This document shows, piece by piece, positions 46,014 through 62,853 of a stretch of DNA of 64,000 bases (its first letter is position 1; each line of letters opens with the position of its first letter). The DNA lies in assembly GCF_007752535.1 (NCBI RefSeq), contig NZ_CP036426.1:6076001-6140000 (forward strand). Direction: 5' to 3'. Origin of the DNA: Tautonia plasticadhaerens (GTDB taxonomy: Bacteria > Planctomycetota > Planctomycetia > Isosphaerales > Isosphaeraceae). The position numbers were made by a program, and so were the translations under genes. Below the pieces are notes generated by a model, which saw only the letters and a program-made list of their open reading frames with translations, was not told the DNA's origin and searched no databases.

Positions 46014-46454
46014 TCAATGGTCGGGACGTGCCCCCCGATCGGGATATGAATCGCCACCCGACTCACCGGTCGTCTCGTGGGTCGACAGTGACAGGTTGCT
46101 GTCCGGATCGGGGAGGGAGCCGAAGTAATCCTGGGCGTAATCGCGGGTCGTGCCGGTCGTCACGATCGGCGAGAGCCAGCCCCGACTCAGGAAGTCGGAC
46201 ATGGAGAAGGCGATCAGGATCAACAACCAGAAGGTGCCCGATCCGGCGAAGAGCCAGGTCAATCTGCTGCTGAATCTCAGGTGCATGAAGTAAAGCATGA
46301 TCAGGATCGCCTTGACGAATGCGATCGTCAGGGCAATCGGGATCTCCAACGCACCCAGGTCGAGCGTGGAGACGGCGACCGTGAGGGCCAGTAGGGCCAT
46401 CAGGATCGCGAAGATGATCAGGTTGGTCCGGATCGTGAAGACGTGCTGGCTCAT
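46014..46454 (-). CDS. coxD: Cytochrome c oxidase subunit IV-like membrane protein
   Basis: The 146-residue protein has three membrane helices (about 9-31, 36-58, 68-89) and a long hydrophilic tail. The segment IALTIAFVKAILIMLYFMHLRFSSRLTWLFAG matches the prokaryotic caa3-type subunit IV family. It stabilises the oxidase core. Start ATG 46454 overlaps the coxC stop by 4 bp (ATGA). Last gene of the respiratory operon. Confidence 0.85.
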   Translation of the reverse strand: MSQHVFTIRTNLIIFAILMALLALTVAVSTLDLGALEIPIALTIAFVKAILIMLYFMHLRFSSRLTWLFAGSGTFWLLILIAFSMSDFLSRGWLSPIVTTGTTRDYAQDYFGSLPDPDSNLSLSTHETTGESGGDSYPDRGARPDH

Positions 46455-47131
46455 CGGTTTATCAGGTAGAGGATCGGGTAGAGGAAGACCCAGACGATGT
46501 CGACGAAGTGCCAGTAGAGGCCGAGCATCTCGACCTGGGTCGCACCACCGCCCGAGAACCATCGACGCCAGACGAGCACCGCCATGATCGCCATGATCAC
46601 GATGCCGATGATCATGTGCAGCGCATGGATGCCGGTCAACGTGAAGTAGAAGGACCAGAAGAGGATCTGGCGACCCGGATACAGATCCAGTCTGAAGCCG
46701 AGCCCCGGGACGAGCCCCAGGTGGTAGTCGTGGATCCACTCGTACGCCTTGACGCCGAGGAAGGCCGAGCCGAGCACGATGGTCGCGATCAGCAGCCAGA
46801 TGGTCTCTCGGTCCCGGCGGAGTTGGGCGGCCCGGACGGCCAGGGCCATCGCCAGGCTGGAGACGAGCAGGACGCCGGTGTTGACGGCGCCGAGCATCAC
46901 GTCGAGGTGATGGCTCGCCAGCCGCATCGCGGGGGCGTACATCGTCTGGAAGATCGCGAAGGCCCCGAGGACCCCCCCGAAGAAGAGGACTTCCGTGGCG
47001 AGGAAGGCCCACATCCCGAGGGAGGAACTCTCGTGCTGCTGGTTCAGGTCGTCGAAGTGATGGTACAGGTACGTATCGTCCTGACCATAGGTATTGTCGT
47101 GGGCGTGGGCGGTGGCGCTAGACAATGCCAT
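46451..47131 (-). CDS. coxC: Cytochrome c oxidase subunit III
   Basis: The 226-residue membrane protein has about five helices and matches caa3/[28 protein letters not shown] with the typical Glu in helix, [35 protein letters not shown] and [19 protein letters not shown]. Subunit III supports proton uptake and stability of subunit I. ATG 47131 overlaps coxA end by 14 bp. An in-frame extension to 47182 would overlap coxA further and is unlikely. Confidence 0.92.
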
Positions 47132-48797
47132 GCTCCTGGACTGCGCGATGCATGTCGGCGAATTCCTGCAACTCGTAGTCATAGGGACCGCCGGTGACGA
47201 TCGGGGATTCCTCGAAGTTGTGCGGCGAGGGGGGGCTGCTGGTCTGCCACTCGAGGCCGTAGGCGCCCCAGGGATTCTTGCCGGCGACCTTGCCGATGAC
47301 CAGAGAGAGCGGCAGGTAGATCAGCGGCATCAGGTAGCCGACCGCCAGGATCGAGGCCCCGGCCGTCGACATCACGTTGAGGACCTGATATTCCTGCGGG
47401 TACTCGTAGTATCGCCTCGGCATGCCGACGTACCCCAGGATGAACTGGGGGAAGAAGGTCAGGTTGAAGCCGATGAAGATGGTGAGGGCCGACAGGGCGC
47501 CCCAGAACTCGGAATACAACCGACCCGTAATCTTCGGCCACCAGAAGTGGAGCCCGCCCATGTACGCCATCAACATGCCGCCGACCATGACGTAATGGAA
47601 ATGGGCGACGATGAAGTAGGTGTCATGGACGTGGACGTCGACGGCCATCGTCGCCAGGAACAGGCCGGTGAGGCCGCCGATGGTGAACAGGCCGATGAAG
47701 CCCAGGGCGTACAGCATCGGGGTCTTGAAGCTGACCGATCCCTTGTAGAGGGTGGCCGTCCAGTTGAAGACCTTGATCCCCGAGGGCACGGCCACGAGGA
47801 AGCTGAGCACCGAGAAGATCATCCCGGCGTACATCGACTGGCTGGAGACGAACATGTGGTGCCCCCAGACCAGGAAGCCGAGCACGGCGATCGCGAGTAA
47901 CGCCCCGGCCATGAACGTGTAGCCGAAGATCTTCTTCCGGGCGAAGGCGGTCACGATCTCGCTGATCACCCCGAACCCCGGGAGGATCATGATGTAGACT
48001 GCGGGGTGGCTGTAGAACCAGAAGAGGTGCTGGAACAGCAGCGGGTCGCCGCCGTAGGCCGGGTCGAAGATGCCGACCTGGAAGAGACGCTCGACGGCGA
48101 CGAGCAAGATCGTGATCGCCAGCACCGGCGTGCCGAGCACGATGATGATGCTGGTCGCGTAATGGGCCCAGACGAAGAGCGGCAAGCGGAGCCAGGTCAT
48201 CCCCGGCGCACGCATCGTGTGGATCGTCACGATGAAGTTCAAGGCCGTCAGGATCGACGAGAAGCCGACGATGAAGATACCCATCGCCGCGGCGATCACC
48301 TGGGTGTTCGAGAACATCGTCGAGTAGGGCGTGTAGAAGGTCCAGCCCGTGTCGACGCCCCCGGACACCAGGGCGTACATCGTGAAGAGGCCGCCGGCCA
48401 TGTAGACGTACCAGCTCAGCAGGTTGAGCCGGGGGAAGGCCAGGTCCCGCGCCCCGATCATGATCGGCAGCAGGAAGTTCCCGAACACCGCCGGGATGGA
48501 GGGGATCAGGAAGAAGAAGATCATGAACACGCCGTGGATGGTGAACGCCCGGTTGTAGTCGTCCGGCGTGTTGAAGACGTCGCCCCGGGGCGTCATCAGC
48601 TCCATCCGGACCAGGGATGCGGCGGCGCCCCCGAAGATGAAGAAGACGGTGATCGACGCCAGGTAGAGCAGCGCAATCCGCTTGTGGTCGGTCGTGAGCA
48701 GCCAGCTCTTGATCGAGTAATCGGCCCCGAGATAGCCTCGGGTCGAATCGGAGGCCTCGATGGACCTCGGATCATCGGCCCTGGATTCGGTGCTCAT
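47118..48797 (-). CDS. coxA: Cytochrome c oxidase subunit I (A2-type, caa3)
   Basis: The 559-residue, 12-helix core subunit binds haem a, haem a3 and CuB. His88 (TIHGVFM) is a haem a ligand. YSHPAVY (262-268) carries a CuB His and the cross-link Tyr. His313/314 (WGHHMF) are CuB ligands, and [17 protein letters not shown] gives haem ligands. The sequence before HPxVY is YS with Ala instead of the Glu of A1 oxidases (GHPEVY), the mark of A2-type oxidases such as those of Thermus and Rhodothermus. It is followed directly by coxC (overlap 14 bp). Confidence 0.96.
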
Positions 48798-49858
48798 CGC
48801 TCGTTCCCTCCGTTATCCTGCTGGGGCATCCCCGTGATCTCTGTGACGTTGGTCACGGCCCCCTCTCCCGGGTCCATGCCTCGGTCGTCGAGGGCTCGGG
48901 TCGGGCGTCCCCGGCCGATCGACTTGATGTAGGCGATGAGCTTCAGCACGTCTTCTTCCGGGATCTGGCCGGCGAAGGAGGGCATGAGCGGCTCGTAACC
49001 GGCAACGACCTCGTTCTTGGGAAGCAGGATGGAATCCCGGACGTATCGTTCATCGGCCCTGATGAGCTTGACGCCGCTCTGCGGGTCGGCCGGGTCGTTG
49101 AGAAGCGGCACCGGGCCCCCGTAAACCCCCTCCAGCGGCGGGGCCTTCACGGTCGAGTTGGTCCCGTGGCACCCGCTGCAGTGGTACTGGCGGAAAAGCG
49201 CCGCGCCTTCGGCGGCCATGCCGGTCGTCTCGCTGCTGCCTTCGAGCCACGCCTCGTACTCGGCGGGCTCCATCACGGTGACCCAGCCCCCCATCCGGGA
49301 ATGCTCGGTACCGCAATACTCGGTGCAGAAGAGGCGGTACCGCCCGACCTTGGTGGGCAAGAACCACATCGTCGTATAGCGGCCGGGCAGGACGTCCTGC
49401 TTCACCCGGAAGTCGGGGATGAAAAAGCTGTGGATCACGTCCTGCGAGGTCATGATCAACCGGACCGGCTTCCCCACGGGGACGTGCAGTTCGTTGATCT
49501 CTTTGCTGCCCTCGGGGTGCTGGGCCTTCCACATCCACTGCTTGCCGATGACGTAGATCTCGACCGAGTCGCCGGGGGGGGCGATCAGGTCGAAATAAAC
49601 GATTGCCCCCCAGACGAACAGGCCGATGCCGAGCAGCGTGGGCACGGTGATATAGAACGCCTCGGCGATCGGGCTGGAGTCCTTGATGTTGGACCGATCG
49701 GCCCGCGAGCCTCGACGGTATTTCACCGCGAAGAACAGCACGAAGAAGGCGAAGGCGAAGGTGAACGCCGCGCTGACGAGCAACAGGCCGATGTAGAGTG
49801 CGTCGACCCTCGGCGCGTGCGTCGATGCGGAGTCGGGGAAGAGTGGGAAGTCCCACAT
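48794..49858 (-). CDS. coxB: Cytochrome c oxidase subunit II with fused cytochrome c domain
   Basis: The 354-residue protein has two membrane helices (about 19-43 and 70-93), then a CuA cupredoxin domain with HSFFIPDF and [12 protein letters not shown] (the two Cys, His and Met ligands). A C-terminal cytochrome c (CSGCH) with a later MPSF Met follows. This fusion defines caa3 oxidases. No lipobox. The start ATG is at 49858, 16 bp after the SCO gene stop; its stop overlaps coxA by 4 bp. Confidence 0.96.
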
Positions 49859-49874: not shown

Positions 49875-50783
49875 TTAGCGGTCCTGATGGGCGTTCGAAG
49901 AGGGGATGAGCCCGGCGGGGTTCGCCGCGGCCCGCCGCCGGTCCCTGAGGAACATCGCGATCATGTAGGAGCCGAGCAACAGCAGCGTCCCGACGCCGAG
50001 GATCCGGATCACGTTCATGATGGCGAAGCTGTAGGTCCCGCTCTCGGGATCGTATGCGTAGCAGAGCAAGAGGGCCTGTTCCGCGACGCCGCCGATCTTG
50101 CCCTGAGACGCCTCGGTTAATGCCAGCCTCAGGTCGCGGGCCGGGTAGCTGATCCCGTAGACGTACCGTGAAACCTTCCCATCGGGCGTCAAGAAGACGA
50201 TCCCGGCGGCGTGGGCGTAGAGGTTGGTCTCGGGATTGAACGAGTAGCGGAAGCCGACCGAGTCGGCGAGGGCGTCGATCGCCCCGACGTCGTCGCTGGT
50301 CAGGAAGTGCCAGCCCTGGCGGGCCTCCTCGCCGGCGTAGTGGTAGGCCCTCAGGACGGCCGCCTCCTTGGCAATCGCCGATTGCGGCGTGTCTTTCGGG
50401 TTGATGCTGACGCTGACCACGTCGAAATCGGTGCCGACGGTGTAATCATCGAGGACGTTGAGGCTGCGGACCAAGGCGTCGAGGACCTGGTTGCACAGCA
50501 GCGGGCAGTCGAAGTAGACGAGGTTCAGGACGACCGGCCGGTCGCCGATCACGTCGCCGAGGCGTACGGATCGCCCCCGCTCGTCCGTGAAGGCCAGGTC
50601 GAGCGGCACCTGGGCCCCGGGCTTCTGCTCGAACTTGACCCGGCTCAGGACCCCGGGTTGCGGGGCCAGTACCGGGCGTTCCGTCCGCGTCACCGACGGC
50701 TGGGCCCACGCCGGGGCGGCGGGGGCCGCGACCAGGGTGAGCGCCGCGACGGCGAGGATCCGCGAACGGGCCGAACGATTCAT
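49875..50783 (-). CDS. SCO1/SenC-like copper chaperone with C-terminal membrane helix
   Basis: The 302-residue protein has a signal peptide (ILAVAALTLVAAPAAPAWAQ) and a thioredoxin-like SCO fold. The copper motif CPLLC (about residue 96) and a downstream His (NLYAHAAGIVFLTPDGK) are present. A C-terminal helix (VIRILGVGTLLLLGSYMIAMFL) anchors it. SCO proteins assemble CuA in CoxB, encoded next in the operon. It starts 4 bp inside the preceding small gene. Confidence 0.92.
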   Translation of the reverse strand: MNRSARSRILAVAALTLVAAPAAPAWAQPSVTRTERPVLAPQPGVLSRVKFEQKPGAQVPLDLAFTDERGRSVRLGDVIGDRPVVLNLVYFDCPLLCNQVLDALVRSLNVLDDYTVGTDFDVVSVSINPKDTPQSAIAKEAAVLRAYHYAGEEARQGWHFLTSDDVGAIDALADSVGFRYSFNPETNLYAHAAGIVFLTPDGKVSRYVYGISYPARDLRLALTEASQGKIGGVAEQALLLCYAYDPESGTYSFAIMNVIRILGVGTLLLLGSYMIAMFLRDRRRAAANPAGLIPSSNAHQDR

Positions 50784-51215: not shown

Positions 51216-52580
51216 TCAGGCCCTCGCCTGCGGAGGTTGAGGGTGGGCATGCGCCCGGAGTTCGATCAGGCCCGGGTCGTGCCGGACCACCAGGGGCCGC
51301 GACTTGAGGACGAAGAGGTAGGCGGCCAACCAGAGCCCGCCGACGCCGATCATCGCGGCCAGGTCGAGCAGGTGAGGCACCGGGCGATCATAGCCGAGTG
51401 ACGGGGCGAGCAGCCAGAACACGTCGACCACGTGGGCGCCCAGGATCAGGGCCGAGATGGCCCGCAACCGGGAGGTGCTCTCCTTGTTCGCCCGGAACAG
51501 CAACACGGTGAATGGCAGGAAGAAGTGGAAGATCGCCAGGAACCCGACCACGTACTGCCAGCCGTGGGCCGAACGGTCGAGATACCAGGGGATTTCCTCG
51601 CTCAGGTCGCCGCTCCAGATGATCAGGAACTGGCTGTAGGAGGTGTAGGCCCACAGCATCACGAAGGCGAGCATCAGGTTGCCGAGGTCCCGCAGCCGCT
51701 TGGGCTGGGGGAGATCCTCGAGCGCCCCCCGGTCGGCCAGCAGGGTAGTCACGATATTGATGACCGCGAAGGTCATCAGGCCCATGCCGATGATCAGCAT
51801 CGCCCCGTAGAGCGTGGAATACCAGGCCGGGTCGAGCGACATGGCCCAGTCGAACAGGGCGAAGGTGGCGGTCAGGAAGACGAGGATGATCCCGGGTGCG
51901 GCAACCTTTCCCATCTTCCGGGTGGCGGGCCAGGGATCCTCCGATCGATCCTGTTCGGTCGACCACCGGACCATGAAGGAGGCGAAGACGGACCAGACGG
52001 CGAAGTAGCCGATCGCCCGACCGAAGAAGAAGGCCCGGTTGAACCAGATTTCCTTGTGGTTATAGCCGGAGGCGTGCCCGCCGTCGGAGCCCTCGACGAC
52101 CTCGTCCAGGGCGAAGGTGTATCTAGGGCCGAGGGATCCGGTCGTCCCCTCGGCCTCGGCGTGCCCCTCGTCGTCGCCCTCGACGTGCTCGGCGTGAGAC
52201 TCGCCGTGGACAGCCCCGGCCCAGGGGTAGAGCTGCCCGATGCCGATGGCGATGGGGAGGAAAAGCGGGATCATCAGGGCCAGGGTCGAGGCCCCCGCCT
52301 CGAGCGGACGTCGGACGACCAGGCCCCAGGTGCCCGAGGCGAGGTGGTTGATCAGCAGGAGCAGCGTGCTGCCGATCGGCACCCCGAGCCAGAAGAGGTA
52401 GGCCATCAGGTACGATCCGAGCACCTGCCGGACGTCGAAGGCCGCCCCCACGATGCAGACGCCCAGCCCGGCGAGGCCGACGACGCCCGAGATGCGGAAC
52501 AGCCGATCGAGTCGGGAGGAGATCCCCTCGCCATCGCCCTGGCCGTTCCCGCCGGTGGTGTTCCCGAAGAACCTGCTCAC
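51216..52580 (-). CDS. actF: Alternative Complex III subunit ActF
   Basis: The 454-residue, about ten-helix protein matches the second NrfD-like integral subunit of ACIII (quinol:cytochrome c oxidoreductase): HKEIWFNRAFFFGRAIGYFAVW, LFDWAMSLDPAWYSTLYGAMLIIG. A His/Glu-rich loop (about residue 120-135, HGESHAEHVEGDDEGHAEAE) is notable. GTG 52580 overlaps actE's stop (GTGA); a longer in-frame extension to 52691 is unlikely. Confidence 0.88.
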   Translation of the reverse strand: MSRFFGNTTGGNGQGDGEGISSRLDRLFRISGVVGLAGLGVCIVGAAFDVRQVLGSYLMAYLFWLGVPIGSTLLLLINHLASGTWGLVVRRPLEAGASTLALMIPLFLPIAIGIGQLYPWAGAVHGESHAEHVEGDDEGHAEAEGTTGSLGPRYTFALDEVVEGSDGGHASGYNHKEIWFNRAFFFGRAIGYFAVWSVFASFMVRWSTEQDRSEDPWPATRKMGKVAAPGIILVFLTATFALFDWAMSLDPAWYSTLYGAMLIIGMGLMTFAVINIVTTLLADRGALEDLPQPKRLRDLGNLMLAFVMLWAYTSYSQFLIIWSGDLSEEIPWYLDRSAHGWQYVVGFLAIFHFFLPFTVLLFRANKESTSRLRAISALILGAHVVDVFWLLAPSLGYDRPVPHLLDLAAMIGVGGLWLAAYLFVLKSRPLVVRHDPGLIELRAHAHPQPPQARA

Positions 52581-53206
52581 TGGGCCGCCTCCTGGGGCTG
52601 CTCGAGCCGCTGCCGATCCGCCTCGGGGAGGCCGTCGACCTGGGCGTACTGGCTCAGTTGTAGGGCCTTGACGTAGGCGACCACGGCCCATCGGTCGCGG
52701 GGCTTGATGCGATGAGCATAGGAATACATCGCGCCATAACCCCGGGTGATCACGTCGAAGAAATGGCCGACGGGCACCTCCCGGAGCCGCTGCTCGTGGA
52801 AGCTCGGCGGCTTGGGCAACCCGCGCTGGACGATCATGCCGTCGCCGTTCCCCAGCCCACCGTGGCAGGGGACGCAGAAGGACTCATATCGGACTCGCCC
52901 CCGGGCGAGGACCGCCTCGTCCACCTCGAAGGGGAAGCTGTCGACGAGCAGGCCGCCTTCCCGGCCGTATTCGAGGTGTTCGTCCTGCCGGGCCCAGCCC
53001 CGGGGGACGGTCCCCGCCACCAGCGGCCTCGCGGAAATGCCGTCCTCGAAGAAGACGCTGGGCTCGAAGGTGTCGTAGCGGGGCTGGTCGTACATCTCGT
53101 TCCGGCAGCCGCCGAGGCCGAGCAGCGTCGACCCGCCCAGCAGCAGCGCGACGGCCATTCGCCCGGCGAAGGAGGCGACCGCGAGGGGTCGGATCGATCG
53201 AATCAC
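52577..53206 (-). CDS. actE: Alternative Complex III subunit ActE (lipoprotein cytochrome c)
   Basis: The 209-residue lipoprotein (LLGLGGC, Cys34) continues with RNEMYDQPRYDTFEPS, the characteristic ActE segment, and one haem c (CVPCH, 111-115) with a GMI-type Met region. It carries electrons from the complex to the oxidase. GTG 53206 overlaps actD's stop (GTGA). Confidence 0.9.
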   Translation of the reverse strand: MIRSIRPLAVASFAGRMAVALLLGGSTLLGLGGCRNEMYDQPRYDTFEPSVFFEDGISARPLVAGTVPRGWARQDEHLEYGREGGLLVDSFPFEVDEAVLARGRVRYESFCVPCHGGLGNGDGMIVQRGLPKPPSFHEQRLREVPVGHFFDVITRGYGAMYSYAHRIKPRDRWAVVAYVKALQLSQYAQVDGLPEADRQRLEQPQEAAQ

Positions 53207-53745
53207 GGCCTCACCTCCGACAACGTCTCTGGGTTGAGCCCTTCCAGGAAGGTGCGCGTCTCGACCTCGTCGAACGCCTCGTCGTCCCAGCGGATGAAGA
53301 GGAAGAAACGGTCGCTGGACGCCCGGGCGAACTCCGGTGCGTTGAAGACGGGGTGGTACGGCAGGGGCAGGCCGTTGAGCAGGATCATGCCGACCACGGC
53401 CGACAGGGCGGCGGCGAGCACGGTGCACTCGAACGTCACCGGGATGAAGGCCGGCCAGCTATTGAGCGGCTTGCCGCCGACGTTCAGCGGGTAGTCGATC
53501 ACCGCCGAGAAGTACTGCATCCCGAAGCCGCCGAGCCCGCCGAGCAGGCCCCCGAGGAAGACGATCGCCGGGATCCGGTTCTTGCGGAAACCGATCGCCT
53601 CGGCCAGTCCCTCGACCGGCATGGGCGAATGGGCCTCCATCCGCCGGAACCCGGCCTCGTGCGCCCGGTTGGCCGCGTCGACCAGTTCTTCCGGCGTCTT
53701 GAACCCGGCGAGGTAGCCGTAGAGTTCCGGGTGGGTGATATCCAT
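53203..53745 (-). CDS. actD: Alternative Complex III subunit ActD (DUF3341)
   Basis: The 180-residue protein has two membrane helices (about 55-80 and 98-120) and a soluble head: LYGYLAGFKTPEELVDAANRAHEAGFRRMEAHSPMPVEG. This matches DUF3341. It packs against the membrane core. ATG 53745 is chosen; a GTG at 53760 would add five residues. Confidence 0.88.
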   Translation of the reverse strand: MDITHPELYGYLAGFKTPEELVDAANRAHEAGFRRMEAHSPMPVEGLAEAIGFRKNRIPAIVFLGGLLGGLGGFGMQYFSAVIDYPLNVGGKPLNSWPAFIPVTFECTVLAAALSAVVGMILLNGLPLPYHPVFNAPEFARASSDRFFLFIRWDDEAFDEVETRTFLEGLNPETLSEVRP

Positions 53746-53766
53746 CGTTTCCGGTTCCACTCCCGA

Positions 53767-55203
53767 TCAGGCGTGCGAAGAGTCGCCGTTGCCGTGCTCG
53801 TTGCCCCGTCCCTGCCCGTGACCTTCCCGGTGCTGCACCTCGTGGACGAGTTCCTTCATCTCGGTGATCGAGATGGCGGGCAGGACCCGGACGAAGAGGA
53901 ACATCAGGCTGAGGAAGACGCCGATCGTCCCCAGGTAGAGCGACCAGTCCCAGACGGTGGGCGTGTAGTGCTCCCAGGCGGCCGGCACGAAGTCGCTGCT
54001 GAGGCTCGTGACGACGATGATGAACCGCTCGAGCCACATGCCGACGTTGATCGCCATCGAGATCAGCCAGAGCACGATCACGTTCTTCCTGCAGAACCGG
54101 ACCCAGAGCAATTGCGGGATCACGATGTTGCAGGCGATCAGGCCCCAGTAGTACACGCGGTAGGGGCCGAACGGCCGATTGCGGAGGATCATGAAATGCT
54201 CGTATTCGTTCTCCCCGTACCAGGCGATGAAGTCCTCCATCAGGTAGCCGTAGGCGACGATCAGGCCGGTCGTGAGCATGACCTTGGCCATGTTGTCGAG
54301 GTGGCGGTCGGTGATGAAGTCCTGCATCCCGTAGACCGCCCGCATCGGGATCGCCAGGGTCAGCACCATCGCGAATCCGGCGAAGACCGCCCCGGCGACG
54401 AAATACGGCGGGAAGATCGTCGTGTGCCAGCCGGGGACGATGCCGACGGCGAAGTCGTACGACACGATCGTGTGCACAGAGACGACCAGCGGCGTCGCCA
54501 GACCGGCGAGCAGCAGGTAGGCCGTCTGATACCTCGACCAGTGGCGGGCCGATCCCCGCCAGCCCATCGCGCCGATCCCGTAGAGCACCTTGGCGACCCG
54601 GTGCTTCGCCTTATCCCGCAGGGTGCCGAGGTCGGGGATCAGCCCGATGTACCAGAACAGCAGCGAGACGGTCGCGTAGGTCGACACCGCGAAGACGTCG
54701 AACACCAGCGGGCTGCGAAACTGGGGCCAGAGGGCCATGGTGTTCGGGTACGGCATCAGCCAGTAGAACACCCAGGGGCGGCCGAGGTGGAGGATCGGAT
54801 ACATGCCGGCGCAGGCGACGGCGAAGAGGGTCATCGCCTCGGCGAACCGGTTGATCGAGGTCCGCCAGTCCTGCCTCAGGAGCAGCAAGATCGCCGAGAT
54901 CAGCGTGCCGGCGTGGCCGATGCCGATCCACCAGACGAAGTTGATGATCGCGAAGCCCCACATCACGGGCACGTTCAGCCCCCAGATGCCCGTGCCGTTG
55001 GCCAGCAGCCAGACGACCGAGACCAGGAAGAGCTGGAGGAGCCCGAAGGAGGCCGCGAAGCCGATCAACCACTGCTTCTTGAACCCCTTGGTCAGGACAA
55101 CATCGCTGATCTTGTCCGTGACGGAGGTGAAGTCGTGGCCGGGGCCGATGATCGGCGCGACCTGGGTGCCGCCGCTCTCGCGTTCGTTCTTCTCGTTCGC
55201 CAT
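53767..55203 (-). CDS. actC: Alternative Complex III subunit ActC (NrfD/PsrC family)
   Basis: The 478-residue, about ten-helix NrfD-type protein is the quinol-binding membrane subunit. Features include the N-terminal helices (GIGHAGTLISAILLLLRQDWRTSINRFAEAM), the quinol-site-like SVHTIVSYDFAVGIVPGWHTTIFPPYFVAGAVF and a long C-terminal tail. A 10-bp gap separates it from actB. Confidence 0.93.
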   Translation of the reverse strand: MANEKNERESGGTQVAPIIGPGHDFTSVTDKISDVVLTKGFKKQWLIGFAASFGLLQLFLVSVVWLLANGTGIWGLNVPVMWGFAIINFVWWIGIGHAGTLISAILLLLRQDWRTSINRFAEAMTLFAVACAGMYPILHLGRPWVFYWLMPYPNTMALWPQFRSPLVFDVFAVSTYATVSLLFWYIGLIPDLGTLRDKAKHRVAKVLYGIGAMGWRGSARHWSRYQTAYLLLAGLATPLVVSVHTIVSYDFAVGIVPGWHTTIFPPYFVAGAVFAGFAMVLTLAIPMRAVYGMQDFITDRHLDNMAKVMLTTGLIVAYGYLMEDFIAWYGENEYEHFMILRNRPFGPYRVYYWGLIACNIVIPQLLWVRFCRKNVIVLWLISMAINVGMWLERFIIVVTSLSSDFVPAAWEHYTPTVWDWSLYLGTIGVFLSLMFLFVRVLPAISITEMKELVHEVQHREGHGQGRGNEHGNGDSSHA

Positions 55204-55213
55204 CGACTCCGCC

Positions 55214-58200
55214 TCACGCCGTCGCGATCTCGGGGTTCGGATTGGTCACTCGGGCCAGGTAGGTCGTCCGGGGGCGGGTATTCAGCTCCTCGGCGAGCAT
55301 CCCGTAGTTGCGCGGCGACTTCTTCAGTCGGGTCACCTCGGAGGTCTCGTCGTTCAGATCGCCGAAGACCAGGGCCCGGGTCGGGCAGGCGGCCTGACAC
55401 GCGGTGACGATCTCGCCGTCTCGCACGCGACGCCCCTCCAGCTCCGATTGGATCTTGCCCTCGTAGATCCGCTGCACGCAGTAGGTGCACTTCTCCATGA
55501 CGCCCCGGGACCGTACGGTGACGTCCGGATTGTGCAGGAGGACCAGCGGGGTGATCCCGGAGCTGAGGGAGGTGTCCTCGAGCTCCATCTTGGAGTACTT
55601 CAGGAAATTGAAGTGGCGGACCTTGTAGGGGCAGTTGTTGGAGCAGTACCGCGTGCCGACGCAGCGGTTGTACACCATGTTGTTCAGCCCCTCGTGATCG
55701 TGCACGGTCGCGCCGACCGGGCAGACCGGCTCGCACGGGGCCTTCTCGCAGTGCATGCAGAAACGGGGCTGGAAGGCGACCTTGGGATTTCCGAGGTCAT
55801 GCGTCGGGGCGTCCCGGCCCTCGACGGCGAAGTAGCGGTCGACTTCCATCCAGTGCATGATCCGGCCGCGCTTGACCTCGCGCTTGCCGACCACGGGGAT
55901 GTTGTTCTCCGCCTGGCAGGCCACGACGCAGGCCGCACAGCCGACGCATCGGTTCAGGTCGACCGTCATGCCCCAGGCGTAGCCGGGGTAGCCGTTCCAG
56001 CCCTCTCCCCGGTCCGCGGAGTAATCGAAGCTCGGATAGAGCGACGGGGTCTCCTCGCCGTGCCTGGCCGAGACGTGGTGCCCGGCGTGGGCGAAGTCGG
56101 GATTGGCCTGGTACTGCTCGAGCGTCGCCTCGCGGATCAGGTCCCGACCCTCGATCGAGCGCTGGAGTTGCGTCGAGGCCAGCTCATAGGTCTGGCCGGT
56201 CGCATTCAGCGAGACGCCGGGGATGATCCAGGGAGTACCCGACGGCCGGATCTCGTAGGCGTTGAACCCGGTCCCATCGCCGACCCGTCCGGCACGGCGT
56301 CGGCCGTAGCCCAGGTGCAGCGTGACCGCGCCTTCCGCGTGGCCGGGCATCACGAAGATCGGGACGTTTACAGTGACCGTGCCGACGGTCAGCCCGACCA
56401 CGTCCCCCATCTCCAGTCCCGAGAGCGGCCCGCCGGAATCCTCGGCGACCAACGAGGCCGGGACCATCAGGGCGTTGTCCCAGGTCAGCTTCGTGACCGG
56501 CTTCGGGCACTCCTGGAGCCAGGCGTTATTGGCGTATCGCCCGTCATAAATGGTGGGATCCGGCGCGAGCACCAGTTCCAGTTCCCCGCCCTCGGCCGCC
56601 AGGGTGTCATCGGCCGTCACCAGCGACCCGGGTTCCTGGATCGAGACCTCGACCGCCTCGGACCCGGTCTCCGGGACGAGCCCATCGTGCAGGATCTTCC
56701 GCCAGCGTTTCTGGAAGCCGGGATCCTCGGTGGGGGATTCGACGCCCTCGGCGAGTCGGCCGCCCCAGTATTGCTCCAGCAGGACCCGCCCCTCGGGGTT
56801 TCGCTCGACGAGCAGGGCCGCGAGGACTTCGATGGCGGACTTGCCGCCGTAGAGCGGGGCGATCAACGGCTGGGCGAGCGTGGCGGTGCCGTCGAAGGCC
56901 CGGCCGTCTCCCCAGGCCTCGAGGAAATGGGCCTCGGGGACATGCCACTGGCACAGCTCTCCCGTCTCGTCGAGGTAGAGCCCGGAGTGGATCCGGAGCA
57001 CCTTCTCGTTCACCATCGCCTCGCCGAAGCCGAGGTCGACCGGCGCGTCGTACACGGGGTTGACCCCGATCATGACGAGAATGTCGACCTCGCCGGCCTT
57101 GAGGTCGTCGACCAAGTCGCGGAGATCCTCGGCCTGATCGACCGACCGGGCTTCGACAGGATTGATGAATTTGACCGTCTTGCCGACGTTCCCGAGCGCG
57201 AGATTCATGGCGTGGGCCAGGGCGTGGACCGACGGCGGCTGACCCTCTCCCGCGAGGACGAGCGAGGTCCCCTGGTGTTCGGCGAGGTCCCGGGCGAGGG
57301 GACCGACCCAGGCCGTAGCCTCCTCGGGAAGCTCCGCGGACGGCTCGGGCAGCCCATCGACGCCGACCTGCCGCGCGAGGGCGAGGGCGAAGTCCTTGAT
57401 CCGGCTGGCCGCCAGTGGGAGGCGATGATCCGCCTTGGAGCCGGTCACCGTGAGGTTGCACTCGACCGAGTAGAGCCGGTTGATTCCCCTCGGGTGGTCC
57501 GGATCCCGACGGTCGGCATAGCCCCGGGCGAGGACCAGGTGGCCGGGCCCGAAGTAGAGGAAATCTGCGTCGAGCGAGAGGATGCGGTCGGCCTGTTCGA
57601 GGTCGAAGACCGGCTGCACATCCTCGCCGAAGGCCCGGATGGCGCCCCGCCGGGCGTTGTCGCGATTGACCGGCTCATACTGATGCCATCGGGCGCCGGG
57701 CAAGGCTTCGGTCAGCCGGGCGATCTGGTCGGCCAGGGTCGGGGAAGTGATGGTGCCGGTGAGGATTCGGAGCCCCTCGCCGGAGCCCTTGGCCCTCCGC
57801 GCCTCGTACTGATCGGCCATCGCCTCCTGGAAGTCCTCCCAGGTGCTGGGGCGACCGTTGCGGAGGATGGATTGGGAGCGGTCCGGGTCGTAGAGGGAGA
57901 GCAGTTCGGCCTGCGCGAAGATGTCCGTCGCCCCGACGGCCGTCGAGATCTCGGCCCGGTCCGGGTCGGCCCCGGGGTCCGGCTCCCTCGGCGGCAGGCA
58001 GGCGGGAGAGGCGGGGTGAAGGGCATTCCCCTCGATCTTGATCGGCCGCCCCTCCTGGCTCTCGACCAGCAGGCCGACGGCATCGCCGTCGAGGCCCTTC
58101 ATGGAGGTGGCGAAGAAGAGCGGCCTGCCCTGGACCATCTCCTCGGGGGCCTTGACGTACGGGACGATCCGCTCGGGGGGCGAGAAAGCGCAGCCGCTGA

Positions 58201-58438
58201 CGCCGGCCAGCGCGAGCGACGCGGCCATCAGCTTGAGGAACTGGCGACGGCTGGTCGGGTCGTCCCAGGTGTCGGCCTGCTCAGGGAATTCCCGCTGGAC
58301 GTAGCGGAGGAATTCCTCGGACTCGGACAACTGCTCCAGGCCTCGCCAGTACTGCGGACCGGAGGCCCCATCCAGGCGAGAGCGGAGCGCGGACAGGTTC
58401 AGGGGGGTCCGCTTCGGCGCGTGCTGGGGCTCTCTCAT
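55214..58438 (-). CDS. actB: Alternative Complex III subunit ActB (Mo-pterin-like plus Fe-S)
   Basis: The 1074-residue protein has a Tat signal (SRRQFLK, RR at 64-65) preceded by the ACIII N-terminal YWRGLEQLSESEEFLRYVQREFP segment. It continues with a molybdopterin-oxidoreductase-like half, which in ACIII lacks the cofactor. The C-terminal ferredoxin-like domain has four cysteine clusters (CVGCAACVVAC, CMHCEKAPCEPVC, CVGTRYCSNNC and CTYC...CQAACP), fitting three [4Fe-4S] plus one [3Fe-4S]. ATG 58438 overlaps actA's stop (ATGA). Confidence 0.95.
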   Translation of the reverse strand: MREPQHAPKRTPLNLSALRSRLDGASGPQYWRGLEQLSESEEFLRYVQREFPEQADTWDDPTSRRQFLKLMAASLALAGVSGCAFSPPERIVPYVKAPEEMVQGRPLFFATSMKGLDGDAVGLLVESQEGRPIKIEGNALHPASPACLPPREPDPGADPDRAEISTAVGATDIFAQAELLSLYDPDRSQSILRNGRPSTWEDFQEAMADQYEARRAKGSGEGLRILTGTITSPTLADQIARLTEALPGARWHQYEPVNRDNARRGAIRAFGEDVQPVFDLEQADRILSLDADFLYFGPGHLVLARGYADRRDPDHPRGINRLYSVECNLTVTGSKADHRLPLAASRIKDFALALARQVGVDGLPEPSAELPEEATAWVGPLARDLAEHQGTSLVLAGEGQPPSVHALAHAMNLALGNVGKTVKFINPVEARSVDQAEDLRDLVDDLKAGEVDILVMIGVNPVYDAPVDLGFGEAMVNEKVLRIHSGLYLDETGELCQWHVPEAHFLEAWGDGRAFDGTATLAQPLIAPLYGGKSAIEVLAALLVERNPEGRVLLEQYWGGRLAEGVESPTEDPGFQKRWRKILHDGLVPETGSEAVEVSIQEPGSLVTADDTLAAEGGELELVLAPDPTIYDGRYANNAWLQECPKPVTKLTWDNALMVPASLVAEDSGGPLSGLEMGDVVGLTVGTVTVNVPIFVMPGHAEGAVTLHLGYGRRRAGRVGDGTGFNAYEIRPSGTPWIIPGVSLNATGQTYELASTQLQRSIEGRDLIREATLEQYQANPDFAHAGHHVSARHGEETPSLYPSFDYSADRGEGWNGYPGYAWGMTVDLNRCVGCAACVVACQAENNIPVVGKREVKRGRIMHWMEVDRYFAVEGRDAPTHDLGNPKVAFQPRFCMHCEKAPCEPVCPVGATVHDHEGLNNMVYNRCVGTRYCSNNCPYKVRHFNFLKYSKMELEDTSLSSGITPLVLLHNPDVTVRSRGVMEKCTYCVQRIYEGKIQSELEGRRVRDGEIVTACQAACPTRALVFGDLNDETSEVTRLKKSPRNYGMLAEELNTRPRTTYLARVTNPNPEIATA

Positions 58439-59184
58439 CGGTGGCACACCGCGCAATTGGTCATGGGGGTGTCATGGCCGAGCGTGGGGACTTCGTACAT
58501 CGCGGCGAGCAGGTATCCCAGCTCCTCCTGCGAGACGTAGTCGTCGGCCGTCAAGCTCTGGTAGGTCCCCGCGTCGGCCTCGCGTTGGACGAACTCGCGG
58601 ACCGCGTCCTGATCGGCGGCGACCGACCAGTCGAGGTTGTAGATCTCCTCCCTGGGGCGGAGGTGCTTCTCGGGGTTGCGGTGGCACTCCAGGCACCAGC
58701 CCATGTTCATCGACTCCTCCTTCCAGGCCAGCGGCATCTCGTCGACCCGGCCGTGGCAGGAATAGCAGCCGACGCCCTTCTTGACGTGGATGGAGTGATT
58801 GAAGTAGGCGTAGTCGGGGACGTCGTGGACCCGGTTCCACTCGATCGGCCGGTCCAGGGCCAGGCTCTCCCGGACAGGGGCCAGCATCGGCGCGTCGGTC
58901 CAGACCTGGGAGTGGCAGCTCATGCAGGTGTAGGTCGGGGGCATCCCGGCGAAGTAGGATTCCTCGACCGACCCGTGGCAGTACCGGCAGTCGATCCCCA
59001 GTCCGCCGACGTGGTGCTCGTGGGAGAAGGGGATCGGTTGATCCTTCACGACGTCGACACCCGTCTGGTAGGGCGACGAGATGATCAGGTATGACACCCC
59101 AACCGCTCCCAGGGCCGCGAGGGCCCCGCCGAGGATGCTCACTCGGGCGAGGGTATTGGCGCTCGGGTGGAAAATCTGGGCCAT
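58435..59184 (-). CDS. actA: Alternative Complex III subunit ActA (pentahaem cytochrome c)
   Basis: The 249-residue protein starts with a membrane anchor (ARVSILGGALAALGAVGVSYLI). It has five CxxCH sites: 66-70 (CRYCH), 87-91 (CMSCH), 140-144 (CYSCH), 164-168 (CLECH) and 244-248 (CAVCH). This is the usual number for ActA. The haems relay electrons from the Fe-S clusters of ActB. First gene of the respiratory operon; ATG 59184 chosen, as an eight-residue extension has no support. Confidence 0.95.
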   Translation of the reverse strand: MAQIFHPSANTLARVSILGGALAALGAVGVSYLIISSPYQTGVDVVKDQPIPFSHEHHVGGLGIDCRYCHGSVEESYFAGMPPTYTCMSCHSQVWTDAPMLAPVRESLALDRPIEWNRVHDVPDYAYFNHSIHVKKGVGCYSCHGRVDEMPLAWKEESMNMGWCLECHRNPEKHLRPREEIYNLDWSVAADQDAVREFVQREADAGTYQSLTADDYVSQEELGYLLAAMYEVPTLGHDTPMTNCAVCHR

Positions 59185-59314
59185 CGCTCTCCTCAACTCG
59201 CCGACCACGAAGGACGACTCGGACGCCTACACCGAGACCGCCGGCGCCCCCGGCCGCCCGACAAACCCGTCGGGACGACCACGACGGCCTGATCGGTCCG
59301 GGTCGACGTTGCAG

Positions 59315-59334
59315 TTCGTGATTTATTTCACGAA
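59315..59334. promoter_or_regulatory. Crp/Fnr-type operator candidate before actA
   Basis: TTCGTGATTTATTTCACGAA is a perfect palindrome with 7-bp arms and a 6-bp AT-rich spacer. Its GTGA-N6-TCAC core matches the Crp/Fnr-family consensus. It lies 131-150 bp before the actA ATG. If the -35/-10 at 59345-59322 is real, the site overlaps the -10. Confidence 0.5.
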
Positions 59335-59350
59335 GTCGGGCGAAATGCAA
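59322..59350 (-). promoter_or_regulatory. Possible promoter of the act/cox operon
   Basis: Minus strand TTGCAT (59350-59345), 17-bp spacer, AATAAA (59327-59322). Half-conserved -35, four of six at -10. Leader to actA would be about 130 bases. Confidence 0.3.
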
Positions 59351-59711
59351 GGGCCGACTCCACCCGCCTTCGAAACGGTAGGGACCTCTCATCCGAGGGA
59401 GATCGAGACCAAGAGGGCGGGCGGAATCGATGTGCCGCGATCGGATGGAGTGCGTGCCATCCGTCGCGGAGGGGGTCGACCCCGTTCGCCTCTGAGTGCG
59501 GGTCGACCCGTCTCCATAAAGGTACCCGGGCGGGCAGACCTCGGCAAGACTCCTCCCCCCCGACCTCCGGGTTGATGCCGGCCTCCTCGCTCGAAGACGC
59601 TCCGATCCGTCAACGGCAACGCGTTCCGCTGGGGAAATTGGAGGCGTCCCGAGGTTGATACGGTCGGAATCGCCCGGCACTCGGCGAACCATCCTCGAGG
59701 ACCCCCTCGCG

Positions 59712-61274
59712 TCAGCCGCCGTCCGAATGGTCGCTGGAATCCTCCCGAGACGCTGCCGAGGCGGGGATCGCGTCCGGACCCCGGCCCCGGCCCAGGGAGA
59801 CGAACAGGAGGATGAGCCAGATCAACGCGAGGATCCGGGCCGGCCAGCGGTCGATGAAGGCGATCGCGGAGCCGTCGGCGGACGTGAGGACCTGGATCAG
59901 TCGCTCCTCGAGCGGGCCGCCGAGGATGATCCCCAGCACCACCGGCCCGAGCGGGACCCCCCGCCGCTCCAGGGCGAAGCCGGCCAGTCCGGACGCGAGC
60001 ATCACGCCGATGTCGAATGTACTCCCGTTGATCGCGTACGAGCCCAGGACGCAGAACAGGAGGATCACCGGCATCAGGATACGCCTCGGGGCCCGGAGCA
60101 CCAGGCCCCCGGCCTTGATCGCGAGCAGGCCGATCGGCAACAACGCCAGGTTCGCGAGGATGAAGATCAGATACAGGCCGTAGACGATGATCGGCTGCTT
60201 CTCGAAGATCTCGGGGCCGGGCCGGAGATCCTTCATCATGAGCACGCCGATGACGATCGCGGTGACCGAGTCTCCGGGGATCCCGAAAATCAGGGCGGGG
60301 ATCCAGGCACCGGCCAGCGCCGAGGAATTCGCCGTGGTCGCGTCGCTCAATCGGTCGAGCGCCGCCTCGTCGTCGGGCGTGTCGGGCTCGGGCTTCGACC
60401 GGCTCGAGACGCCGAGCGAGACCCAGCTGGCGATGTCCGCGCCGGCGCCGGGGAGCATCCCGATCAATGCGCCGATCGAGCCGGATCGGAATGCCGAGAC
60501 CGGCCTCCGGAACAGCCGGCGGAGCGACCCGGGCAAAGCATGGAGCACCCGGACCCTCGAGACGTCGGCGACCGAGGTAGGCCCGGGAACTCCCGGTTCC
60601 AGGGTCAACAAGTTCTTCAGGACCTCGGAGACCCCGAAGAGGCCGATCATCGCCGGGATGAAGCCGATCCCCTGGTAGAGTTCCGGGTACCCGAGCGTGA
60701 AACGGGCACTCGCGTGGACCGCGCTCAGGCCGACCGTCGACACGAGCAGACCGAGCAAGACGGCCAGTGCCCCCTTGAGCGGGGCGTCCTTCGACACGAC
60801 CACGGCGCAGGTCAGGCCGAGCACATAGAGCCAGAAGTGCTCGGCCGGACTGAAGAGCGTCCCGACCTGGGCGAGCTGGCTGCCCAGCACGATGAGGACG
60901 ACCGCGCCGAACAGGCCCCCGGCCACGCTGAATACCAGGGCCGTGACCAGCGCCTCGTCCCCCTTGCCCCGGCTCGACAGGCCGCTCCCGATGTCGGCAT
61001 AGGCCGCCGAGGCGGGGGTGCCGGGGATGCGGAGCAGGATCGTCGGGATGTCCCCGGAGAAGATCGCGCAGGCGACCATCGTGACCACCGCCGCCAGCGC
61101 GGGCAGGGGAGGCATCCAGTAAGTGACGGGGACGAGCAACGCCATCGCCATCGTCGCCGTGAGGCCCGGTACGGCCCCGACGAAGACCCCGTAGACCGCC
61201 GCCCCGAGCACGGCGGCCCAGATCATCGGGTCGAGGAGGACCTGCCGAAAGGCCTCGAGGATCGCAGGGTCCAT
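59712..61274 (-). CDS. tctA: Tripartite tricarboxylate transporter large permease TctA
   Basis: The 520-residue, roughly 12-helix protein has family motifs GAVPGLTATMAMALLVPVTYWM, IPTILLRIPGTPASAAYADIG, ALIGMLPGAGADIASWVSLG and IFGIPGDSVTAIVIGVLMM. TctA works with a periplasmic binding protein and a small membrane subunit to import citrate or other carboxylates. The TctC-TctB fusion gene lies directly upstream, 36 bp away. Substrate cannot be told from sequence. Confidence 0.93.
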   Translation of the reverse strand: MDPAILEAFRQVLLDPMIWAAVLGAAVYGVFVGAVPGLTATMAMALLVPVTYWMPPLPALAAVVTMVACAIFSGDIPTILLRIPGTPASAAYADIGSGLSSRGKGDEALVTALVFSVAGGLFGAVVLIVLGSQLAQVGTLFSPAEHFWLYVLGLTCAVVVSKDAPLKGALAVLLGLLVSTVGLSAVHASARFTLGYPELYQGIGFIPAMIGLFGVSEVLKNLLTLEPGVPGPTSVADVSRVRVLHALPGSLRRLFRRPVSAFRSGSIGALIGMLPGAGADIASWVSLGVSSRSKPEPDTPDDEAALDRLSDATTANSSALAGAWIPALIFGIPGDSVTAIVIGVLMMKDLRPGPEIFEKQPIIVYGLYLIFILANLALLPIGLLAIKAGGLVLRAPRRILMPVILLFCVLGSYAINGSTFDIGVMLASGLAGFALERRGVPLGPVVLGIILGGPLEERLIQVLTSADGSAIAFIDRWPARILALIWLILLFVSLGRGRGPDAIPASAASREDSSDHSDGG

Positions 61275-61310: not shown

Positions 61311-62660
61311 TCACCAGCCGAGCCATCCCCAGGGCAGCGGCACCCTGAGGCCGACGGCGAAAATCTGATAGGTCGCCGGCACGAGGGCCGCCGAAGTCGC
61401 CAGCGCGACCGGCCAGCGGACGCCCAGCGCCAGCAGCATCCCCAACAGCAGCGTCGACGCCGAGAGGAGATAGCCGACCTGGCCCGCCAGGGCCATGTAG
61501 CTGACGACGAACAGGACGACCAGCCCCATCCGGGCCAGTCCGGCCCGGTCGAGGCGGGGGGCCCCGGGATCGCGCCGCAAGCTTCCCCTGAGGAGCAGGA
61601 CCGCGAGCGAGGCGCCGAGCAAGGCGAGGATCACGATCGGGAAGATCATCGGGCCGTACCGGGTCCGACGGACCGACTGGAACGCCTCCCCCATGAGGAT
61701 GTCCCCCATCTGGCGGTCGAACTGCTCCATGATCTCCCGGAATTCCCCCGGCGGTGCGGGCGAGACGTTGAAGCCGGTGTGCTCCATGAAGCCGAGGTAG
61801 TCCTCGCTCCGGATGACCCGGTCGACGGCCGAGACGAGCAGCTCGGCGCGGTCCTCGGGCACGCCCAGCGGCAGGCCGAGCCCTCGCCAGCCTCCCATCG
61901 ACCAGTCGGAGCCCTGCTCCCCGAAGGTCGGGACGTCGGGGAAATCCGGGATCCGGGCCTCGGCCATCACCCCGAGGCAGCGGACGCGCCCGGCCTCCAT
62001 CAGCGAGGAGGCCTCGGGGAGGCTGCAACAGACCATGTCGATTCCGCCGGACATCAGGGCATCGAGCGAAGGCCCGGCGCCGTTGATCGGGATCCAGAGG
62101 ACGTCGTCGGCCCGGAGGCCTTCGGCGTCGAGCCAGCCGGCGAGGCTCACGTGCCAGATGCCCCCCTGGGCGGTGCCCGAGGCCTTGAGGGACCTCGGTG
62201 CCTCGGCGACCGCCGCCCGGACATCCGAGATCGAGCCCCAGGGGGAATCGGCCGGGACGAAGAGGGCCGCGGCGTCCTGGTTCAGGAGCATGACGGGGCG
62301 GAAGTCGTCGGGCCCGATGTTCGTGAGCCCCCGCCAGTGGAGCATGTTCAACTCCACAGTGATCATCGTGATCGAGTGGCCGTCCGGCGGCGCCAACGCC
62401 CCCCGGGTGTGTCCGGTGACCCCGGACCCCCCGGTCGCGTTCACCACGTTGACCGGGACGCCGAGATCCTGCTCCAGCATCGCGGCCACCTTGCGGGAGA
62501 CGGTGTCCGTCCCCCCCCCGGCAGACCAGGGACAGATGAGCATGATCGGCCGGTCCGGGAATCGCTCCTCGCCGGAGCATCCGGCGAGGACGACCGCGGT
62601 CGATGCCAGGATCAGCGGCAGGAGCCGCCCCGGGGGTCGGATCGAGCGGGATCGGATCAT
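61311..62660 (-). CDS. TctC-TctB fusion: carboxylate-binding lipoprotein plus small membrane subunit
   Basis: The 449-residue protein has a lipoprotein signal (PLILASTAVVLAGC, Cys28). Residues about 30-330 match the TctC/Bug binding-protein family (PIMLICPWSAGGGTDTVSRKVAAML, VVNATGGSGVTGHTRGA, INGAGPSLDALMSGGIDM, VPTFGEQG). Residues about 345-449 have four hydrophobic helices like TctB (DUF1468). In most genomes these are two separate genes; here one frame covers both with no internal start needed. ATG 62660 is chosen over an extension to 62777. Confidence 0.85.
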   Translation of the reverse strand: MIRSRSIRPPGRLLPLILASTAVVLAGCSGEERFPDRPIMLICPWSAGGGTDTVSRKVAAMLEQDLGVPVNVVNATGGSGVTGHTRGALAPPDGHSITMITVELNMLHWRGLTNIGPDDFRPVMLLNQDAAALFVPADSPWGSISDVRAAVAEAPRSLKASGTAQGGIWHVSLAGWLDAEGLRADDVLWIPINGAGPSLDALMSGGIDMVCCSLPEASSLMEAGRVRCLGVMAEARIPDFPDVPTFGEQGSDWSMGGWRGLGLPLGVPEDRAELLVSAVDRVIRSEDYLGFMEHTGFNVSPAPPGEFREIMEQFDRQMGDILMGEAFQSVRRTRYGPMIFPIVILALLGASLAVLLLRGSLRRDPGAPRLDRAGLARMGLVVLFVVSYMALAGQVGYLLSASTLLLGMLLALGVRWPVALATSAALVPATYQIFAVGLRVPLPWGWLGW

Positions 62661-62853
62661 CGTCGCCCCGGGGGAACTCGTCGACGAGGGCCGGGTCGCC
62701 CATGCGGCGATGCCAGGCAACAAACGGATACACGCGAATCCGGGCAGGGCACGGCGGCGGGGAGGGTCGCCTCGCATCGGGAACTCGGCCTCAACGATAG
62801 GCGGTCATCGGCATCGGGGAAAGGGCCCGGCCGTCGAGACCGCCGGATCCGGC

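Follow-up and report, generated by a model that had tools for sequence, protein, structure and literature searches.

The intergenic region in front of the alternative complex III operon of Tautonia plasticadhaerens contains a perfect 7-6-7 inverted repeat (positions 59315–59334 of the 64,000-nucleotide stretch analysed here, hereafter the window), which reads TTCGTGATTTATTTCACGAA on the plus strand. The palindrome is very probably an operator placed before a respiratory-chain operon, and we consider it likely that its reader is the NAD(H)-sensing repressor Rex. On the minus strand, the proposed Rex operator is TTCGTGA-AATAAA-TCACGAA with the 18-bp core TCGTGAAATAAATCACGA; the assignment draws on its sequence, its conservation and its score on a position matrix.

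The palindrome and the downstream genes

The palindrome is located in a 527-bp gap between tctA and actA, both of which lie on the minus strand. An earlier sequence-only reading had described a perfect 7-6-7 repeat with a GTGA-N6-TCAC core at this place, which the sequence confirms. Its wording "just before actA" was generous, as the palindrome is upstream of actA at a distance of 130 bp from the ATG (59184, minus strand). At 61311–62777 (minus strand), adjoining tctA, a single reading frame fuses a TctC solute receptor to a TctB membrane subunit.

All genes of the downstream run are on the minus strand. The first is actA (58435–59184), which encodes the multihaem cytochrome c subunit of alternative complex III. 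It is followed by actB (55214–58456, start not fixed), encoding a molybdopterin-oxidoreductase-like and Fe-S subunit, actC (53767–55203), encoding an NrfD-like membrane subunit, actD (53203–53760; Pfam ActD, 216 bits), a gene for an actE-like cytochrome c (52577–53242, start not fixed) and a probable actF (51216–52577, start not fixed), which has no Pfam match and is assigned by position and size only. The run continues with genes for a SCO1/SenC family protein (49875–50783), a caa3-type cytochrome oxidase subunit II to which a cytochrome c domain is fused (coxB, 48794–49858), cytochrome c oxidase subunit I (47118–48797), and the cytochrome oxidase subunits III (46451–47182) and IV (prokaryotic type, 46014–46454). 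The gene order and shared strand suggest a single act-cox operon, so that the operator would control complex III and complex IV together.

The GTGA-N6-TCAC core occurs twice in the window against an expectation of 0.70, and 15 of 100 shuffled windows reach two copies. Because this count is at chance level, the core motif alone was dropped as evidence, and the significance of the palindrome was taken from its conservation instead. The second copy (48843–48856) is within the coxB frame, scores −8.1 on the matrix described below and probably arose by chance. As regards further copies of the site, which had been suggested as a check, the full 20-mer with a free spacer and no mismatch is found once in the 9.4-Mb genome. 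The same search at three mismatches was too noisy to use (327 matches versus 119 in the reversed control), and CGTGA-N6-TCACG was abandoned as a definition of the regulon (11 places genome-wide versus 2 in the reversed control).

Conservation of the act site

The act site is present in all four Tautonia genomes, where its 18-bp core begins 147–150 bp before actA. In the four-way alignment it forms the longest invariant run, of 20 columns; the next runs, of 11 and 9 columns, lie near the start codon. Among the other ungapped intergenic columns of the four act leaders, 73 of 259 are invariant, and none of 20,000 column shuffles produced an invariant run of 20. Outside the site, the six Tautonia pairs are 43–82% identical. 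The spacer AATAAA is also invariant, being as conserved as the arms. Such a 20-bp invariant island in diverged DNA makes it very probable that the palindrome is an operator, and supports the claim that it serves a respiratory operon.

A hairpin in the 5′ leader RNA, or a chance repeat, is hardly credible as an explanation of the palindrome. The arms do pair in the predicted fold of the minus-strand transcript; however, the 161-nt leader folds with a z-score of only −1.59, and 10 of 200 shuffled sequences fold as well. The scan of 59150–59760 revealed no terminator-like site, and no Rfam model matched above its gathering score. Moreover, the loop of 6 nt varies no more than the arms do, the same motif recurs before nuo and atp (discussed below), and a chance repeat is unlikely given the shuffling result.

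Conservation upstream of actA in relatives, on which the sequence-only reading had staked its proposal, stops at the border of the genus. None of the 26 non-Tautonia actA loci examined in the family has the site, the best match covering 9 of 12 positions and the best matrix score being 12.3 bits (L082). One of these loci (L078) offered only 115 bp, and 16 further actA matches fall outside this count. The site is thus conserved at genus depth only, which implies either that act joined the regulon late or that the other lineages lost the site.

In 57 distant actA loci (L091–L147; L090 was left out as a repeat of a Tautonia copy), L120 matches 11 of the 12 Rex positions, and L123, L144 and L147 match 10. 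The matrix gives at least 6 bits in eight of these loci, namely L097 (21.5), L098 (14.6), L144 and L147 (13.6), L119 (11.9), L101 (10.7), L132 (7.1) and L115 (6.4), with L120 and L123 falling below this value. The element TTGTGTAA-TT-TTACACA is located approximately 290–306 bp before actA in L097, L098 and L101, which come from two Anaerolineales MAGs and one MAG labelled Acidobacteria; it is a different palindrome from the act site. In the two Chthonomonas MAGs (L144 and L147), TTCGTGAAAAAATGCACAGA is found 133 bp before actA at an equal place, which is a weak hint of independent recruitment.

Rex-type sites before nuo and atp

The published Rex operator, TTGTGAA-N4-TTCACAA, contains GTGA-N6-TCAC (PMC5355995, PMC5317091, PMC2883068). 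The core TCGTGAAATAAATCACGA differs from this consensus at 3 of 14 specified positions (C/G at position 2 and its mirror, and one inner T to A); as a point against Rex, its right half is GTGAT in place of the Rex-typical GTGAA. When the 9.4-Mb genome was searched for TTGTGA-N6-TCACAA with at most one mismatch, three places were found: upstream of nuoA (no mismatch), upstream of the atp operon and on contig C4. At up to two mismatches there are 24 places versus 14 in the reversed control, act being one of the 21 with exactly two, so that a match at this level carries little weight by itself.

Among the Tautonia genomes, a more stringent pattern matches nuo, atp, act and C4 in this one (four places), four places in G040 (act, nuo, atp and one other), five in G041 (act, nuo and three others) and two in G042 (act and nuo), with 0 or 1 per genome in the reversed control; it was drawn after the act, nuo and atp sites had been seen and is therefore not independent of them. 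The atp sites of G041 and G042 are one base off this pattern. At the four extra matches in G040 and G041, no respiratory gene was evident among the reading frames listed.

The family set comprised 45 genomes, in which 30 nuoA, 30 atpB and 30 rex loci were examined. A Rex-type site that agrees with the consensus in 10 or more of its 12 positions precedes nuoA in 28 of the 30 loci and begins 43–74 bp before the start. It is missing in L173 (G021) and L183 (G023), which belong to one genus and both encode Rex. With the threshold set at 9 of 12 positions, all 30 loci have a site before the atp operon. The regions upstream of the 30 rex genes (1000 bp in 28 cases, less in two) served as a control; none reached 10 of 12 positions or 10 bits, and autoregulation of rex was rejected for lack of a site, whereas rex-hem is a Rex target in Streptomyces avermitilis (PMC5355995). 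In the nuo loci (L156–L185), a terminator-like G+C-rich repeat followed by a T-tract was often seen by eye directly before the nuo operator.

A 22-column matrix was built from 50 non-Tautonia sites (24 nuo and 26 atp). Its top match in the window is the act site with 28.3 bits, the next match having 5.1 bits and simulated sequence of 8 Mb peaking at 13.5 bits. Over 67 stretches of this genome (206 kb including overlaps), the highest scores are those of C4 (35.8), nuo and atp (33.1) and act (28.3), followed by 24.4 bits at C1:8295380 and 21.9 bits before an aminotransferase gene. Because the training sites were picked by the Rex consensus, the matrix places act with nuo and atp and does not speak to the identity of the regulator. 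A match of 33.2 bits within a long reading frame of G041 (L279), together with that at C1:8295380, indicates that high scores also occur where no respiratory target is visible. With an 18-column version, the act site scores 23.4, the hppA site of S. avermitilis 24.5, the other S. avermitilis Rex sites 9.9–21.2, the Thermotoga maritima Rex operator 29.0, and a CRP consensus taken from general knowledge 0.1. A Rex regulon that spans the family appears to have gained the act operator specifically in Tautonia.

The Rex-type site with the highest score in these stretches, that on C4 (L018:1501–1520, G000:C4:103012–103031), precedes a gene for a 93-residue Pro/Cys-rich protein with no Pfam match. 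The 21.9-bit site (L051:1501–1518, G000:C1:2645406) coincides with the start of a gene for a class V aminotransferase; in Caldicellulosiruptor bescii, the Rex targets include an aminotransferase of this class (PMC6391272). The 24.4-bit site (L149:1581–1598, G000:C1:8295380) has no evident respiratory gene adjoining it.

Candidate regulators

A single Rex protein is encoded in this genome (C1:7377368). Rex is found in all four Tautonia genomes and in 42 of the 45 family genomes, with models exceeding the NCBIfam cut-offs; those without it are G003 (92% complete) and two genomes of 64 and 68% completeness. The base-reading segment AQVRKDL is identical in the alignment of all 30 rex loci. T. maritima Rex reads bases via Arg48 and Lys49, and its Arg60 makes a minor-groove contact (PMC8836258). 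The family segment carries the Arg and Lys that align with these base readers, and Pro replaces Arg60. The parts for NAD(H) sensing are likewise encoded: the GxGNLG motif is conserved in 29 of 30 loci (GLGHLG in L232), and VDLS in 28 of 30 (IDLS in L229 and L231). In G003, for which no Rex match was obtained, the nuo half-site is altered to TTTTGA (11 of 12 positions), and the atp site, with 9 of 12, is among the four lowest; this pattern weakly suits Rex.

Another transcription factor with a shared motif might control nuo, atp and act, which we regard as unlikely. Half-site sequence does not suffice to name a protein, and the atp site is asymmetric in a conserved way that is not usual among Rex sites. 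Against this, the motif is that of published Rex operators, nuo and atp are published Rex targets, and Rex itself is conserved across the family.

The sequence-only reading assigned the palindrome to the Crp/Fnr family, that is, to a dimer sensing cAMP, oxygen or redox state that would bind GTGA-N6-TCAC. The CRP operator is TGTGA-N6-TCACA; core and spacing are those of the act site, whereas the flanking and spacer bases differ. The very low score of the CRP consensus on the 18-column matrix also speaks against this family. As proposed in that reading, the genome was searched for Crp/Fnr proteins. One clear Crp/Fnr helix-turn-helix protein was found (C1:3590665), which has no cNMP domain in Pfam, and one also occurs in G042; a second helix-turn-helix match (C1:7564293) is a GntR-type regulator and was rejected. 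Such proteins are thus present in two Tautonia genomes but are not common to all four. The sequence-only reading had named the lack of an encoded regulator of this family as refuting its proposal. G041 (99% complete) has no Crp/Fnr helix-turn-helix match, and the single match in G040 (97%) reaches 23 bits against a cut-off of 27; nonetheless, both keep the act site. Each of these two genomes has one cNMP-domain protein, which appears from its sequence to stand alone, without a DNA-binding domain. The Crp/Fnr proteins of this genome (G000) and of G042 align over 52 residues only and are therefore not clear orthologues.

CRP reads GTGA through an Arg-Glu...Arg arrangement. The recognition helix of the protein of this genome, LGARRASVTEALRPL, lacks the Glu and the second Arg, and that of the G042 protein, IGATRETVTIVLGQM, has Arg-Glu and lacks the second Arg. 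Across the family, Crp/Fnr helix-turn-helix matches occur in 35 of 45 genomes and exceed the cut-off in 21. Ten genomes have no match, and the nuo locus was examined in seven of them (G003, G006, G007, G017, G026, G038 and G041; completeness is 85% for G006 and 89% for G017, and the Crp/Fnr scoring of G038 covered 101 of 111 candidates). The nuo site is kept in all seven with at least 10 of 12 positions, and Rex is present in six.

Some positional and comparative evidence would suit a Crp/Fnr reader. The atp site lies near −61 of its inferred start (see below), and −61 is the usual class I position of CRP. In contrast, the nuo sites, measured from alignment-based starts, leave too little room for a centre at −61 in 25 of 28 loci, and in several even for one at −41. 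A Crp/Fnr protein of Staphylococcus aureus, ArcR, binds a Rex-like motif; it bound several of the same upstream regions as Rex in vitro and had no significant effect on transcription of the shared genes tested (PMC2883068). Given a conserved site in two genomes with no Crp/Fnr factor over the cut-off, and a recognition helix mismatched to the CRP residues, we consider this family quite unlikely to be the reader of the act site. No conserved Crp/Fnr transcription factor was found in Tautonia.

The cNMP-domain proteins include a glucose-6-phosphate dehydrogenase-like protein with a C-terminal cNMP-binding domain in two Tautonia genomes, the identity of the enzyme resting on reading of the sequence, and a ferredoxin-type protein with several cNMP domains (loci of both proteins: L286 and L287; L291 and L294).

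Promoter arrangement and proposed mechanism

A consensus scan of 59150–59760 detected no sigma-70 promoter. The word CCTTG (59348–59352, minus strand) is invariant in all four Tautonia genomes, always equally far upstream of the operator, and it is the only other invariant word of five bases further upstream in the alignment. It may be part of a −35 element (TTGnnT). With TTGnnT as the −35 element and a 17-nt spacer, the −10 region would fall on the operator. The −10 sequence is a weak match and the scan was empty, so the promoter position is provisional. Of the repression through −10 overlap put forward in the sequence-only reading, a position compatible with repression therefore stands, whereas the candidate −10 element is weak.

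At nuo, 25–56 nt separate the operator from the start codons (as set by the alignment), so that polymerase and Rex should compete there, and the spacing at act suggests the same competition. The atp site is located 15–19 nt upstream of TTGAC in all 30 loci (L186–L215), the distance being 17 nt in 20 of them. This would place it near −61 of the inferred start, which is an activator-like place where a repressor is less expected.

Rex binds DNA with NAD+ and is released by NADH (PMC2883068, PMC5355995). A Rex-NAD+ dimer on the palindrome would cover the act promoter, so that the genes for alternative complex III and the caa3-type oxidase would be transcribed less. A build-up of NADH would release Rex and allow the act operon to be made; more quinol would then be oxidised and NADH would fall. 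We infer Rex binding, the sign of the control, the promoter position and the response to NADH from comparative sequence data. The tie of aerobic electron transport to redox sensing proposed in the sequence-only reading is probably correct in its link to redox state, with Rex rather than a Crp/Fnr protein as the likely sensor.

Relation to known systems

Rex and its operators are already known, and in Streptomyces so is Rex control of complex I and ATP synthase. The Rex targets of S. avermitilis include cyd as well as nuo and atp, the latter two being repressed directly (PMC5355995), so the shared targets have precedent. The Rex operators (ROP) of that organism resemble those described here in being 18-bp inverted repeats with a GTGA-N6-TCAC core and in their nuo and atp targets, and the half-sites of its hppA site, TCGTGAATCAATTCACGA, are those of act, TCGTGA/TCACGA (PMC5355995). 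The S. avermitilis targets compared here also include cyd, rex-hem, ndh2, hppA and wblE, and none of them is an alternative complex III (PMC5355995). The S. aureus Rex consensus, TTGTGAAW4TTCACAA, is the same motif; the S. aureus targets compared here are mainly fermentation and nitrate genes, whereas those in Tautonia are operons of the aerobic chain (PMC2883068). A literature search that did not extend to the main Rex survey found neither a description of Rex control of alternative complex III nor a printed account of a planctomycetal Rex regulon.

Genome comparison can tell palindromes of the Crp type from those of the Rex type, a question already met in Staphylococcus (PMC2883068).

To our knowledge, little is known about the regulation of respiration in Planctomycetota. 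Because the same type of operator stands before nuo and atp, a single switch would govern how much of the proton-pumping chain is made. We put forward the following complete scheme for Tautonia tentatively, and consider it unlikely that all of its parts hold together: a single NADH/NAD+ sensor would act over nuo, act with the caa3-type oxidase, and atp; the act operator would have been added within the genus to an older, family-wide nuo-atp regulon; and Rex would act as a repressor on the nuo and act promoters, whereas at atp, with its site approximately 61 bp upstream of the inferred start, its effect would be positive (or neutral).
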